Of a DNA stretch of 40,935 bases, positions 19,951 through 25,489 are shown one piece after another. The first letter of the stretch is position 1. The number at the start of each line of letters is the position of its first letter. This DNA is from Peptococcaceae bacterium. GTDB lineage: Bacteria; Bacillota; Desulfitobacteriia; Desulfitobacteriales; Syntrophobotulaceae. The position numbers were made by a program, and so were the translations under genes. The stretch is taken from contig DUML01000065.1 of NCBI GenBank assembly GCA_012839895.1, positions 1-40,935 on the forward strand, in the 5' to 3' direction. The notes under the pieces are model-generated. The model did not search any database. It saw only the letters and a program-made list of their open reading frames with translations, and was not told the DNA's origin.

Positions 19951-19993
19951 ATTCTCCATTGAACTTTAAATTCCTGCAAAAAAAATAGAATAT

Positions 19994-20172: not shown

Positions 20173-21408
20173 TTAATGGGCCACCTCCATTTCATTCAAA
20201 TACTCGCCAAAAAGCCCATTAACCATTTCCCGAACCACTTTGTCCTTAACAGCCCGTGCTAAAATGTCACTTTGTTTAACAAATAGCGGGAGGCGGGGAC
20301 TTTCCCCGACATTCACGAATTTCCCATCCCTGCAGTTTTTTCTGATTGCAGCCAAAAAATCATTAAAAGAGTAAATTTTAAAACGTTCCACCTTATTGTC
20401 GGCTGCCACCAGCTCGAGAATTGCAATTACCAAATCTTCGTAGCTGCTTTCCTTTGATAGATCCAATAAAAGCGCAAATTTAGGAATAATATGTTCAAAT
20501 AACAGCCGCCGGTAAGGGATACCGGTCAAACCTAAAGACTGTCCCAAACGAAGAATAGCCTTCTCGCCGGGGGCTAACAAAAAATTCATAAAAAATTCCT
20601 CATCCCCGGTGGGACGGAGGTAATATTTGCGTCCTTTCAACCCTTGCCACTGCCGGTAAGCGTCAAAATACCCCAGTTGCAGATTAAATCTGGCCTGGTC
20701 TTGATTGAAATCCAGGATACCTCCCAGATTTTCATCAGTGGCAATATATTTCACCTTCACGTTAGGATTCAAAACTTTGCGCGTCCTGCCCGGAGCTTTG
20801 GTCCTAATGGCAATAATATCCCGATAGCCTTTTTTAACCAGCATATTTAAGGGCAGGTTATCATAAAAGCCTCCATCCATATAACGTTTGCCATCAATTT
20901 TTTCCTGTTTAAAAGCCGGCAAATTGGCACTGGCCAAAAGATACTCTATCACTTTTCCTTCCGGAATGTCTTCCAAAAATAATTCCAAAGGCTTTAGGTC
21001 AGTGAGAGATATAGTGACAAAGCCAAAAAGAACTTTGGATTTTCTCAGTTTTGATTCCTGGATATTTTCTTGCAACAATTTTTTAATAAAAGTTATATCC
21101 AACCCTTTATCTTGAGCGATTTCTTTGGCTTTCTTCATAAAGTAAAGCAAACCGTCGTGGGATATTTCCAGATTTTTTAGTTCCAGCAAGCGGGATTCTT
21201 CGATATCAAAAACCTGGTAAGGAGAAATATTATACCAAAGCTCGTAAGCTCTTTCCAGTTGCCCCTGGACAATCATAGCCCCGTTTAAAGCCCCGATTGA
21301 AGTACCGGTTACGGCATTAACCTCAACCCCAAGCTCTTGCAAGGCTTTAAAAGCTCCTATTTGATAAGAGCCCCTGGCGCCGCCGCCTTCCAATACCAGA
21401 CCATACAT
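20173..21408 (-). CDS. Patatin-like phospholipase
   Basis: Predicted lipid acyl hydrolase with a Ser-Asp dyad. The oxyanion-hole motif EGGGARG (residues 7-13), the nucleophile elbow GTSIG with Ser37, and DGG with Asp178 are intact, so it should be active. No signal peptide is visible; RssA/YjjU-type bacterial patatins are cytoplasmic or membrane-associated. A C-terminal part of about 120 residues beyond the patatin fold (after roughly 290) is not recognised. Length 411 aa; ATG 21408, weak SD (GTGGGA). It has its own candidate promoter (21444-21472) and terminators, so it looks monocistronic. The substrate cannot be deduced. Confidence 0.9.
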   Translation of the reverse strand: MYGLVLEGGGARGSYQIGAFKALQELGVEVNAVTGTSIGALNGAMIVQGQLERAYELWYNISPYQVFDIEESRLLELKNLEISHDGLLYFMKKAKEIAQDKGLDITFIKKLLQENIQESKLRKSKVLFGFVTISLTDLKPLELFLEDIPEGKVIEYLLASANLPAFKQEKIDGKRYMDGGFYDNLPLNMLVKKGYRDIIAIRTKAPGRTRKVLNPNVKVKYIATDENLGGILDFNQDQARFNLQLGYFDAYRQWQGLKGRKYYLRPTGDEEFFMNFLLAPGEKAILRLGQSLGLTGIPYRRLLFEHIIPKFALLLDLSKESSYEDLVIAILELVAADNKVERFKIYSFNDFLAAIRKNCRDGKFVNVGESPRLPLFVKQSDILARAVKDKVVREMVNGLFGEYLNEMEVAH

Positions 21409-21618: not shown

Positions 21619-21813
21619 TTATTCCTTAATTTTCTTGTTCAACTCGGCGACAAGCTCATCCGGATCTTTACCGTGAGTGAGAGCCGCTCCTTCCACACTC
21701 TCCATAGTTGCAGAAGGGCATCCCAAGCAATGCATGCCGAGACCCATAAAGACTTCCGCAGTCTGGGGATATTCTCTAAGCACCTGACCTATACGCATTT
21801 CTTTTGTAATCAT
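21619..21813 (-). CDS. DUF1858 domain protein with CxxC motif
   Basis: A 64-residue, whole-length DUF1858 domain: MRIGQVLREYPQTAEVFMGLGMHCLGCPSA. Members have a CxxC pair (Cys29 and Cys32 here) and are often linked to hybrid-cluster or redox proteins; the molecular role is unknown. The start is ATG 21813 with a strong AAGGAGGA SD. The leader contains the six-base hairpin TAGGAT/ATCCTA (21831-21846) just upstream of the SD. A TTGCTT-17-TATAAT promoter lies at 21871-21899 with a palindrome in its spacer, so the gene is probably a regulated single unit. Confidence 0.85.
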   Translation of the reverse strand: MITKEMRIGQVLREYPQTAEVFMGLGMHCLGCPSATMESVEGAALTHGKDPDELVAELNKKIKE

Positions 21814-22048: not shown

Positions 22049-24199
22049 TTAAAAATTTATATTGAAAAGTTGAAAGGCTTGAATCTTAGGCCAGACCAGC
22101 TCAAGCAGATACAAAAGATCGTCCCGTTGCCAGAGCGAAATCCCGGCCCCAACAACCAGTGCAGTGAATGGGAGTAACAAAAAATAACGGTATTTTCCTC
22201 CGGTCTTCCAAACGTCCTTAACTCTCCAGGGCAGTAAAAGCAGCAGGAACAGGCAATAGACAGCCCAAGGAGTAAACCAAGGCCAACCATAGCAAACCCC
22301 CACCCAAGCTATGCCAACCAAGAAAACCCAAGAATATCTTCTTTCCAACCAACAACAGAGGCCAAGAGTACTGGGGTGCTCCGGCCAAGAAGCGGCAGCC
22401 AGGCCAACCTGCATCATCCTTATCAGCGAGAATAAGGAAGAACAGAATAACCAAAGGAGTAAGGGACTTTGGCTCCTTAAAAGCAACAGTGGGGAAATAT
22501 CGTAAGACAGCCAGTAAGGGATTTCCAGCGGAAGCCTAAACAAGAAAGAAACAAAGATGGCACCAAGGGTAAACATACGGCTGACAAAGCCCAAACTCCG
22601 CCAAAAGAAAGCCCGGCGGATTTTTCTCTTTGGGTTTGGATTATATAGTTCCTCGTAAGCCCAGTTTGGGCTACGGAAATTTTGAACGGTAATTAGCAAG
22701 AGAAAGACCAACCATAAAATAGCCGCTTTCTTTTCTCCAGCCCAAAACAATGTCGCTTGAGGAAAGGTATCAACGCCAGCCTGAGAAGAGGATTGATATA
22801 GCACTTGACCCCATTCTCCTTGCAGCCCATCCTCGCCTAAAACGACAACTTCCGGATTACTTCCCTTTTCTTGGCCGGGAAGAATAAGGTTATAAACTGG
22901 CAAAAGGCCAATTCTTTGTTTAACCTGCCGGAGGTACTCATTTGTCTCGGCGGAAGGCTGCGCACCTTTGGCTGCTGTCCAAGCCAAAACAGAAGGATGA
23001 TGTTCTGCCAACAAGATAAGCTCTTCATAAATTTGGGGGGAGGGGAGCTTGCCTTGGGTGGCCAAACTGACAGGCAGTTCCAGCCAAACCCCCAAACCGA
23101 GGCGATCCGCAGTATAAAGCCATTCCTCATCCGGGAAAAATCCCATAAAATAAAGAACATTAATACCCTGATCTTTGAGATTATTCAGATACTCGGTAAC
23201 TTGGCGCTTATTTCTAATGTTGAATTCCTGTTTTTGGGTCAAAATTTGCCCATTAATGGCAAAATTATAGTCCGGTTTCCGGACCCCGATGGGAAGTTGA
23301 ACCCGGTCATAAACGCCGCGGTTATTGTTTAAGGTTAGTTCCAGTACATAAAGAACCGGGTTATCCAAACTCCAAAATTTGGTCTCCGGCAGGTTAAATA
23401 CCAGATCTACTTTTTGCCTTTGACCGTCGCAGGTAAAAGGCAAGAGACAGTCAGCAACTTTTTCTCCCTGGTCTTTAAGAACGCCGCTTAAAGTCCAAAC
23501 CTCAGGGCCCGATAACTGATGATTCTTTAAACTAACCCCAACCGTAAGCTGTTTTTGCCCAGGATCATAGGAAACAGTCGTCCGGGAAAGTTCAATACTG
23601 CTTTGAGCAACTGCCTCCAAACGGATTTGACCTGTTACTCTTCCCAGTTCGGGCCACAACCGGCCAAATAATTTTGCTTGTGCCGCACGAGTCGGAGCCA
23701 TTTCCAGATAAAAAATATTCTCCTCACTTAAATTCAACCGGGCCGGAGAAATATCCAAGGTGTATATACCTCCTGCCCCTTCTATTTCCCCCAGGAAATT
23801 AACTTCATCAATCCCGTTGAGAAAGACCCGGGCTTGGCCATATAAACCTCCCAAAACCAGTTGAGCCGGGCGACCTCCCCATTTCCCCGTTACCCGAAAG
23901 CGTTTGGTTGCGACCTGAAAACCTTGATCCGAAGGCAAAACCAAACTCTTAACTTGAATTAATCCTTTTAAGCCTTGCTTTTCCCCGGTTTGCGATAATC
24001 TGGTTTCCTGATCCCAAGCTTCTCTTAAGGACGAATAGCTATTCCATTTCCCCCCCAGATCCTGAATAATCCGATCCGCTGTAGTGAGAGGTACAGTACT
24101 GTATAATTCCCTTCCGGGAAGATGCTGCCAAAATATTGCTAAGGCTGCAAAAGAAAGAACAAACATTGCTATTATTAAAACGCCAAATCTTTTAAACAT
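22049..24199 (-). CDS. Membrane protein with a GH2-like (beta-galactosidase fold) ectodomain, probably catalytically inactive
   Basis: 716 aa. A signal anchor (about residues 5-24) leads to a jelly-roll sugar-binding-like domain (about 45-200), an Ig-like domain ending in the GH2 phrase WSLDNPVLYVLEL (276-288), and a partial TIM barrel (about 310-480) with LKDQGINVLYFMGFFPDEEW and HHPSVLAWTAAKG. At the last site active GH2 enzymes have an Asn-Glu pair holding the acid/base glutamate; here it is Ala-Lys, so I predict no hydrolysis. From about 490 to 700 there are five or six membrane segments, an unusual addition. It may bind extracellular glycan or act as a membrane scaffold; this is inference. 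ATG 24199 has only a weak SD. No operon partner is obvious. Confidence 0.75.
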   Translation of the reverse strand: MFKRFGVLIIAMFVLSFAALAIFWQHLPGRELYSTVPLTTADRIIQDLGGKWNSYSSLREAWDQETRLSQTGEKQGLKGLIQVKSLVLPSDQGFQVATKRFRVTGKWGGRPAQLVLGGLYGQARVFLNGIDEVNFLGEIEGAGGIYTLDISPARLNLSEENIFYLEMAPTRAAQAKLFGRLWPELGRVTGQIRLEAVAQSSIELSRTTVSYDPGQKQLTVGVSLKNHQLSGPEVWTLSGVLKDQGEKVADCLLPFTCDGQRQKVDLVFNLPETKFWSLDNPVLYVLELTLNNNRGVYDRVQLPIGVRKPDYNFAINGQILTQKQEFNIRNKRQVTEYLNNLKDQGINVLYFMGFFPDEEWLYTADRLGLGVWLELPVSLATQGKLPSPQIYEELILLAEHHPSVLAWTAAKGAQPSAETNEYLRQVKQRIGLLPVYNLILPGQEKGSNPEVVVLGEDGLQGEWGQVLYQSSSQAGVDTFPQATLFWAGEKKAAILWLVFLLLITVQNFRSPNWAYEELYNPNPKRKIRRAFFWRSLGFVSRMFTLGAIFVSFLFRLPLEIPYWLSYDISPLLLLRSQSPLLLWLFCSSLFSLIRMMQVGLAAASWPEHPSTLGLCCWLERRYSWVFLVGIAWVGVCYGWPWFTPWAVYCLFLLLLLPWRVKDVWKTGGKYRYFLLLPFTALVVGAGISLWQRDDLLYLLELVWPKIQAFQLFNINF

Positions 24200-24305
24200 T
24201 CTTTTCTGATTACTCCCGCAAAGTTAAGTTATTAATACTGACATAATTCGCGAAATGTACGCAAAAACCTCTTTATCATAGGCAAAAAGAGAATGCCTCC
24301 AAAAA

Positions 24306-24437: not shown

Positions 24438-24863
24438 TTAATTTTCCCTGTTTTCTTGACAAGCAGGGCATATCCCATAAAAAACAAGATTATGAGTATG
24501 AATATCAAAGCCAGTTTTTTCTGTAACAAGCTCATCCATGTTAATCAAATTACAGTGAAAATCGACAACTTTTCCGCAATTTGAACACATAACATGATAA
24601 TGATTGGCAGGATTACCGTCAAACCTGCTGGACATATCACCACAAGGCAATTCCAGAATAAAGCCGTGCTCTTTAAGCATATTTAAAGTATTATAGATAG
24701 TGCCTAAACTGACTCCCGGAAATCTTATTTTTACTTGTTTATAAATCTCCTCAGCTGTAGGATGAGAATCAGTAGCCAGCAAAAACTCCAAAATTGCCTG
24801 CCTTTGGGGAGTAAAGCGAATTCCCTTATCTTTTAATCCTTTAAGTATTGCTATTGCATCCAC
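24438..24863 (-). CDS. perR: Peroxide-responsive repressor PerR (Fur family)
   Basis: Fur-family metalloregulator. The winged helix has RFTPQRQAILEFL and SLGTIYNTLNMLKEHG. The metal-sensing motifs are SRFD (the aspartate that distinguishes PerR from Fur), NHYHVMCSNCGKVVDFH, and a second Cys pair in CPAC, which with CSNC makes the structural zinc site. 141 aa. It starts at GTG 24863, nine bases after GAGG. A consensus promoter and a 14/15 PerR box lie directly upstream, so it is probably autoregulated and controls peroxide defence in this anaerobe. Confidence 0.93.
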   Translation of the reverse strand: MDAIAILKGLKDKGIRFTPQRQAILEFLLATDSHPTAEEIYKQVKIRFPGVSLGTIYNTLNMLKEHGFILELPCGDMSSRFDGNPANHYHVMCSNCGKVVDFHCNLINMDELVTEKTGFDIHTHNLVFYGICPACQENREN

Positions 24864-24962: not shown

Positions 24963-24997
24963 AAAAAAAGAGTATTCGCTTGGAATACTCTTTTTTT
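24963..24997 (-). terminator. Terminator after the ferredoxin gene (symmetrical, could act both ways)
   Basis: AGAGTATTC (24969-24977) and GAATACTCT (24983-24991) form a nine-base stem with a five-base loop, flanked by seven A on one side and seven T on the other. It lies 15 bases after the ferredoxin stop and abuts the perR promoter. Confidence 0.85.
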
Positions 24998-25011
24998 AAG
25001 AAGATCACTAA

Positions 25012-25182
25012 TTACTCTTCAATAATAGCTCCTGAAGGGCAGGCATCTACGCATGCACCGCATTCAGCACAAGCATCTTGGTCAATAACATATTTGCCAT
25101 CGCCTTCACTAATTGCTCCTGTTGCACACTCATCAACACAGGTGGCACAGCTAGTGCATTCATCAGTAATAACGTATGCCAT
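25012..25182 (-). CDS. 2[4Fe-4S] ferredoxin
   Basis: 56-residue clostridial-type ferredoxin carrying two CxxCxxCxxxC cluster motifs: CTSCATCVDECATGAI (N-terminal half) and CAECGACVDACPSGAI (C-terminal half). It is a low-potential electron carrier of the cytoplasm. The first motif has Ala instead of the usual Pro after the fourth cysteine, the second has the normal Pro. ATG 25182 follows GAGGAGG. It has its own extended -10 promoter and a strong terminator, so it is a single-gene unit; the electron partners cannot be told from context. Confidence 0.95.
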   Translation of the reverse strand: MAYVITDECTSCATCVDECATGAISEGDGKYVIDQDACAECGACVDACPSGAIIEE

Positions 25183-25218
25183 AGATTTGAACCTCCTCTT
25201 TTCTCCATCTCCAAAGAA

Positions 25219-25247
25219 ACTATATCAAAACAGATGAAAAAAGGCAA
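25219..25247 (-). promoter_or_regulatory. Sigma-A promoter of the ferredoxin gene (extended -10)
   Basis: TTGCCT (25247-25242), a 17-base spacer and TGATATAGT, an extended -10 (hexamer TATAGT at 25224-25219), 37 bases before the ATG. Confidence 0.7.
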
Positions 25248-25339: not shown

Positions 25340-25489
25340 TTATCTATTGGGGCGATAAGGCACTTTATAGAGTCTGCGCAGGCAATAAGAACAATAAGGG
25401 AGAAGACGATTGCTGACGTGATTCCGGCGAAAAACCACTTTGGAAGTATCCTCATGCTCATAACCACAAGAACGGCATTTTTCAAGCAA
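25340..25489 (-). CDS. 49-residue putative zinc-ribbon protein
   Basis: A short frame opening at TTG 25489 behind AGGAG (ten-base spacing) encodes a protein with two Cys pairs, KCRSCGYEHED and YCSYCLRRLYK, separated by 24 residues, and a very basic C-terminus ending RPNR. Two CxxC knuckles with basic flanks fit a zinc ribbon that could bind nucleic acid. I do not recognise a family. Longer frames cover the same bases on both strands, but neither has an SD or a motif. No terminator follows; a duplicated CCAATCACT lies just after it. Existence is moderately supported. Confidence 0.5.
   Translation of the reverse strand: MLEKCRSCGYEHEDTSKVVFRRNHVSNRLLPYCSYCLRRLYKVPYRPNR

Follow-up and report, generated by a model that had tools for sequence, protein, structure and literature searches.

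A nearly order-wide membrane protein with a GH2-derived ectodomain that has almost certainly lost its glycosidase activity

Background

Glycosidases of family GH2, beta-galactosidases and beta-glucuronidases such as those of PDB entries 3cmg, 5z1a and 8dhe, are the closest described relatives of the protein studied here, which we call the pseudo-GH2 protein. Both have a jelly roll and an Ig-like domain, and they share the first five strands of the barrel and the motifs WSLDNPxLY and HPSV. They differ in several respects: the pseudo-GH2 protein is without the Asn-Glu pair and without the active-site Arg and His, its barrel ends before the nucleophile, and it has membrane anchors at both ends.

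A looser likeness is that to BcsB, the accessory subunit of cellulose synthase, whose membrane part holds non-catalytic domains of carbohydrate-binding type on the outside. BcsB has a single anchor and accompanies a synthase, whereas the pseudo-GH2 protein has a different domain order and no synthase as a neighbour. No paper describing such a protein was found in the open-access literature searched, and within that literature nothing contradicts the original prediction, made from the DNA alone, that no described system has this form. In what follows, the window is the whole stretch of DNA that was analysed, 40,935 nucleotides from a Peptococcaceae bacterium of the order Desulfitobacteriales.

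Results

Architecture and GH2 descent

The features of the locus are collected in Table 1. Of the seven membrane helices of the pseudo-GH2 protein, one is N-terminal (about 2-25) and six are C-terminal (about 487-690), where an earlier count had given five or six segments; about 460 residues lie between the anchor and the C-terminal helices. The protein starts with a conserved MF[KN]R, and the hydropathy and charge profile predicts that its N terminus is inside. The positive charge at the N terminus and in the loops 505-542, 599-631 and 655-674 marks these as inside, so that the ectodomain is predicted to face out.

Table 1. Features of the pseudo-GH2 locus, in window coordinates
Feature	Position	Strand	Basis
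SigH-type promoter of the mraZ/dcw cluster, AGGAATTT..GGAGAAT, also given as GCAGGAATTT..GGAGAAT	19951..19975	(-)	near-perfect
Patatin-like phospholipase, downstream neighbour	20173..21408	(-)	PF01734; in many genomes of the window's family
DUF1858 protein, conserved downstream neighbour	21619..21813	(-)	PF08984 5.6e-23; synteny
Pseudo-GH2 membrane protein, 716 aa	22049..24199	(-)	ORF, ATG start; single-copy family
Six-helix membrane domain, residues 487-716	22052..22741	(-)	hydropathy/charge, model
Truncated barrel, residues 307-470	22790..23281	(-)	AlphaFold secondary structure; PDB alignment ends at 441
G461-x-W463-G464 before the membrane	22808..22819	(-)	homologue tally
Lys411-Gly412, position of GH2 Asn and acid/base Glu	22964..22969	(-)	profile alignment, homologue tally
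Glu374, retained barrel acid	23078..23080	(-)	homologue tally
Ig-like GH2 domain, residues 191-306, W276..P281..Y284	23282..23629	(-)	PF00703
Jelly-roll (GH2 sugar-binding-like) domain, residues 44-190	23630..24070	(-)	PF02837, profile and fold matches
N-terminal transmembrane anchor, residues ~2-25	24125..24196	(-)	hydropathy and charge profile, AlphaFold-model helix 2-25
SigH-like promoter, AGGTTTTT..CGAAT, 18 bases AGG to GAAT	24246..24270	(-)	upstream of the pseudo-GH2 gene
Fur/PerR-family regulator, conserved upstream neighbour	24438..24863	(-)	PF01475 2.7e-32; synteny

The ectodomain is derived from a GH2 glycosidase. The only Pfam domain in that part of the window protein is PF00703, the GH2 Ig-like domain, which matches residues 208-307 (3.1e-7); across aligned homologues it is found in 30 of 30, and the jelly roll PF02837 in 15 of 30. 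Compared with PDB, the ectodomain profile of the family matches GH2 structures over residues 97-441, with values up to 7.7e-30. The structural search agrees: with Foldseek, the best PDB matches of the AlphaFold model are GH2s (E up to 3e-23), a result to be read for fold class only and not for geometry, the whole-protein model, built on seven sequences, being of moderate quality (pLDDT 65, pTM 0.40). The pair N128-G129 of the jelly roll is kept in 52 of 53 homologues, the remaining one having a gap there.

The original prediction spoke of a full train of GH2 modules, and its jelly roll and Ig-like domain stand. The full barrel, which it had itself also called partial, does not: only about 180 residues separate the Ig domain from the second membrane helix (TM2). 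The AlphaFold model has five clear strands (316, 348, 370, 404, 435) followed by short ones, and a complete eight-stranded barrel was not found, as judged from these strands in a model of moderate confidence and from a PDB alignment that extends to 441.

Loss of the active site

In the family profile alignment to GH2 structures of PDB, from which the register of the Arg, His, Asn and Glu positions is taken, the segment H401-P402-S403-V-L-A-W-T-A-A-K411-G412 aligns with the HPS...W...N-E of 3cmg, 5z1a, 8dhe and 5t98. Among 53 distinct homologues, position 411 is Lys in 43, Ile in four, Ala in two, and Thr, Val, Gln or Asp in one each, but never Asn; position 412 is Gly in 43, Ala in four, Glu in two, and Arg, Met, Phe or Asn in one each. 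The position of the GH2 Arg is occupied by Tyr in 48/53 homologues, and that of the His by Gly in 42/53. As a control, ordinary GH2s were taken from genomes outside the order: all 17 that could be read keep Asn-Glu, two further proteins being unreadable by the motif pattern. The replacement had been described as Ala-Lys for Asn-Glu; the loss itself is upheld and is kept in the homologues, while the residues were one position out of register, the actual pair being Lys-Gly.

The nucleophile Glu of strand 7 was also sought. Between 415 and 488, no column of the 53 homologues is acidic in more than 50% of the copies, which bears out the earlier remark that there is no second catalytic glutamate in the shortened barrel; past the motif, an acidic majority is seen at two columns only, 414, two residues after it (Asp or Glu in 83%), and 489, at the start of TM2. 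The motif G-x-W-G may be a remnant of the nucleophile strand. Its second residue, 462, is Glu in the window and Ser, Pro, Val, Ala or Thr elsewhere; GEWG was considered as an alternative nucleophile and rejected, with Glu at 462 in only 7/53 homologues.

Two homologues in related genomes (L039:9869-12034 and L040:15826-17994) have Lys-Glu at 411-412, so that a Glu occupies the acid/base position but the Asn is absent; they too are without a conserved nucleophile. Glu374 is present in 49 of the 53 homologues, and the four copies without it are also without Lys411: this co-occurrence is what a salt bridge in the former pocket would give, although the copies are related.

Judged by its residues, the pseudo-GH2 protein is close to certain to be a pseudo-glycosidase, catalytically dead. 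The idea of a dead GH2 ectodomain on a polytopic base is thereby strengthened, the loss of catalytic residues being fixed across the 53 homologues; neither a homologue with Asn-Glu nor a competent glutamate pair was found.

An orphan membrane domain

The six-helix domain gave no recurrent family in Pfam and NCBIfam, only isolated weak matches, and no match among PDB sequences. A separate model of the domain is fair (pLDDT 73.5, pTM 0.69), and Foldseek found nothing below E 2 for its fold in PDB. Membrane proteins with a Yip1 domain (PF04893) sometimes carry an ectodomain, and they too are small multi-helix membrane domains. A Yip1 origin was rejected: the profile comparison, which rests on two Yip1 sequences, gave a probability of 0.6% over 22 columns, and PF04893 itself did not match. 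The cytoplasmic loops, at residues 509-535, 599-623 and 657-672, are basic, and conservation within the protein is highest in them, at 2.6-2.7 bits compared with 2.0-2.4 in the outer loops and 1.4 in the C-terminal tail. This conservation suggests that the loops serve a cytosolic partner or an anionic ligand.

Distribution and inheritance

The pseudo-GH2 gene is present in 59 of 61 relatives, one copy each, and in 72 of the 83 genomes of the class; it is absent from the nine genomes that represent the class's other order. The two genomes of the order that gave no match are G018 and G028, the latter 99% complete, although G030, of the same genus, has one. In a set of 398 genomes of the phylum, 11 have the membrane domain, and each of these belongs to the window's order; a twelfth match, in a genome outside the order (G299), was discarded as a chance match inside an amino-acid permease. 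In other families the ectodomain profile picks up ordinary GH2s that have no membrane part, and its sole match in the window's own genome is the pseudo-GH2 gene.

Pairs with a finite estimate have dN/dS between 0.05 and 0.26 in both halves: the gene is under purifying selection, about equally strong in the ectodomain and in the transmembrane half. Pairwise divergence tracks that of MraW (r 0.90) and SpoVD (r 0.90), at a faster pace (median identity 32%, against 64-71% for the neighbours). The family is single-copy, near-universal in the window's order, and vertically inherited like the genes of the wall and division cluster (dcw).

Genomic neighbourhood

Recurrent neighbours beside the homologues are PerR, DUF1858 and dcw, and their usual order is Fur/PerR, pseudo-GH2 gene, DUF1858 (with a patatin gene or a gene that looks MetE-like on inspection of its sequence), followed by mraZ-mraW-ftsL-spoVD-murE. 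In most loci PerR adjoins the pseudo-GH2 gene; in a minority, parts of the neighbourhood have been lost. The median gap is 168 bp to PerR and 101 bp to the next listed neighbour; with such gaps, and with the dcw neighbourhood lost in some genomes, the synteny near dcw may be historical. No sugar-transport gene is among the recurrent neighbours, which weakens the proposal of a transport accessory as far as nutrient sugars are concerned. An Rfam search of the 20-27 kb part of the window gave no match.

Two small ORFs lie further upstream, on the same strand. One, upstream of perR and conserved in related loci, is ferredoxin-like (25012-25182, minus strand, 56 aa) with two CxxCxxC..C clusters, and a larger ORF on the opposite strand, 24980-25237, is its antisense. 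The other (25340-25489, minus strand, 49 aa) has two CxxC motifs and relatives in about 14 related loci, and is possibly a zinc ribbon.

SigH-like promoters

In SigH promoters the spacer is 11-12 bases, that is, 18-19 bases from AGG to GAAT. The corresponding pattern, AGG-N18/19-GAAW, occurs upstream of the pseudo-GH2 gene in 20 of 34 loci, where 0.9 are expected; the same motif occurs before PerR in 0/28 and before DUF1858 in 0/23. A SigH-like motif is found before mraZ in 16-17 of 20 related loci, and related motifs before spoVG in 6/13 and before spoIIAA in 4/15, all these counts including related genomes and hence not being independent. The wall and division cluster of the order may thus be SigH-controlled.

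The published half-sites of SigH are RNAGGAWWW and RNNGAATWW (PMC8510167). Most copies of the pseudo-GH2 gene have AGG[TG]TTTT in the -35 region and not AGGA, the fourth base being usually T or G. The spacing and the comparison with mraZ, spoVG and spoIIAA support SigH; the fourth base does not. Genome-wide, the strict SigH pattern is not above the backward control, and, given this count and the -35 mismatch, SigH control is a reading specific to this position. Of the 14 copies without the motif, several, not all, lie close behind perR (9-72 bp), and these may be read through from it. Promoters of SigE, SigF/G and SigK types were looked for upstream and had no recurrent match.

Discussion

The usual place of the gene before dcw, together with the SigH-like promoter, points to the cell envelope, and a role there is the most economical inference for the protein. 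We give about even chances to the reading in which it is a non-catalytic, wall-facing protein that binds a glycan or docks another protein, has a conserved cytoplasmic face, and is probably raised at the transition phase; both the wall role and the ligand are inferred. The ligand of the outer GH2 fold would be a wall glycan, whether peptidoglycan, a secondary wall polymer or a lipid-linked precursor; alternatively, the fold would dock a wall protein. The membrane helices would relay binding to the basic, conserved loops on the cytoplasmic side, where a cytosolic partner would dock, and expression would rise with dcw at the transition phase from the SigH-like promoter. The loss of those GH2 active-site residues that can be checked counts against glycan binding. 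A bolder version, which we hold to be unlikely, makes the protein a novel type of envelope receptor, order-wide, whose dead GH2 fold would read the state of a wall glycan; the six-helix domain, itself previously undescribed, would pass the signal to a cytosolic partner, and wall synthesis or septation would thereby be coordinated as cells enter stationary phase.

The fold might instead have been kept solely as a docking surface, for instance for divisome or spore-envelope proteins, with no sugar bound. In favour of this, active-site Arg, His, Asn and Glu are gone while N128-G129, W276..Y284, H401-P402, D365 and G368 are kept, and the position beside dcw is order-wide; yet conservation is the same in the jelly roll, the Ig domain and the barrel, this reading is hardly separable from glycan binding, and we judge it rather improbable. 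It is also doubtful that the work is done by the membrane domain, acting as a six-helix transporter or flippase of an envelope precursor, with the pseudo-GH2 part as an accessory for substrate handling or gating. Polar and aromatic residues are indeed conserved in the six helices, the inner loops are basic, and the transmembrane half is under purifying selection about as strong as that of the ectodomain, but Pfam, NCBIfam, PDB sequences and Foldseek gave no match to a transporter family or fold (chains of the O-antigen exporter Wzm rank near the top in Foldseek, with E values of 3 or worse, which is chance), and no ATPase or transferase recurs next to the gene across the order.

An enzyme of changed chemistry, with Lys411, Glu374 and the acidic residue at 414 as a new active site, would account for the conservation of these residues (43/53, 49/53 and 83%) and for the four copies that are without both Glu374 and Lys411, consistent with a linked pair. 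We consider it very unlikely: Lys411 is missing in 10 of 53 copies, a barrel without its last strands is unlikely to form a closed pocket, and the pair is more simply explained by a salt bridge between Lys and Glu that fills the former site. Finally, the lost active site might suggest the decaying relic of a GH2 gene, a reading already contradicted, and whose probability is next to nil: the gene is intact and of full length in nearly all genomes, with invariant residues, a usually conserved position and the low dN/dS reported above for both halves.

Conclusions

The finding holds up, and on firmer ground than the original prediction could know. Sequence-based annotation would name the pseudo-GH2 protein a glycosidase, which it almost certainly is not. 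Its gene is single-copy and occurs in nearly the whole of an anaerobic order, with a dichloromethane degrader among the relatives, and the protein carries an orphan membrane domain. Given the usual place of the gene and its likely promoter, a role in the wall or in sporulation would be directly testable in a cultivated, non-pathogenic relative.
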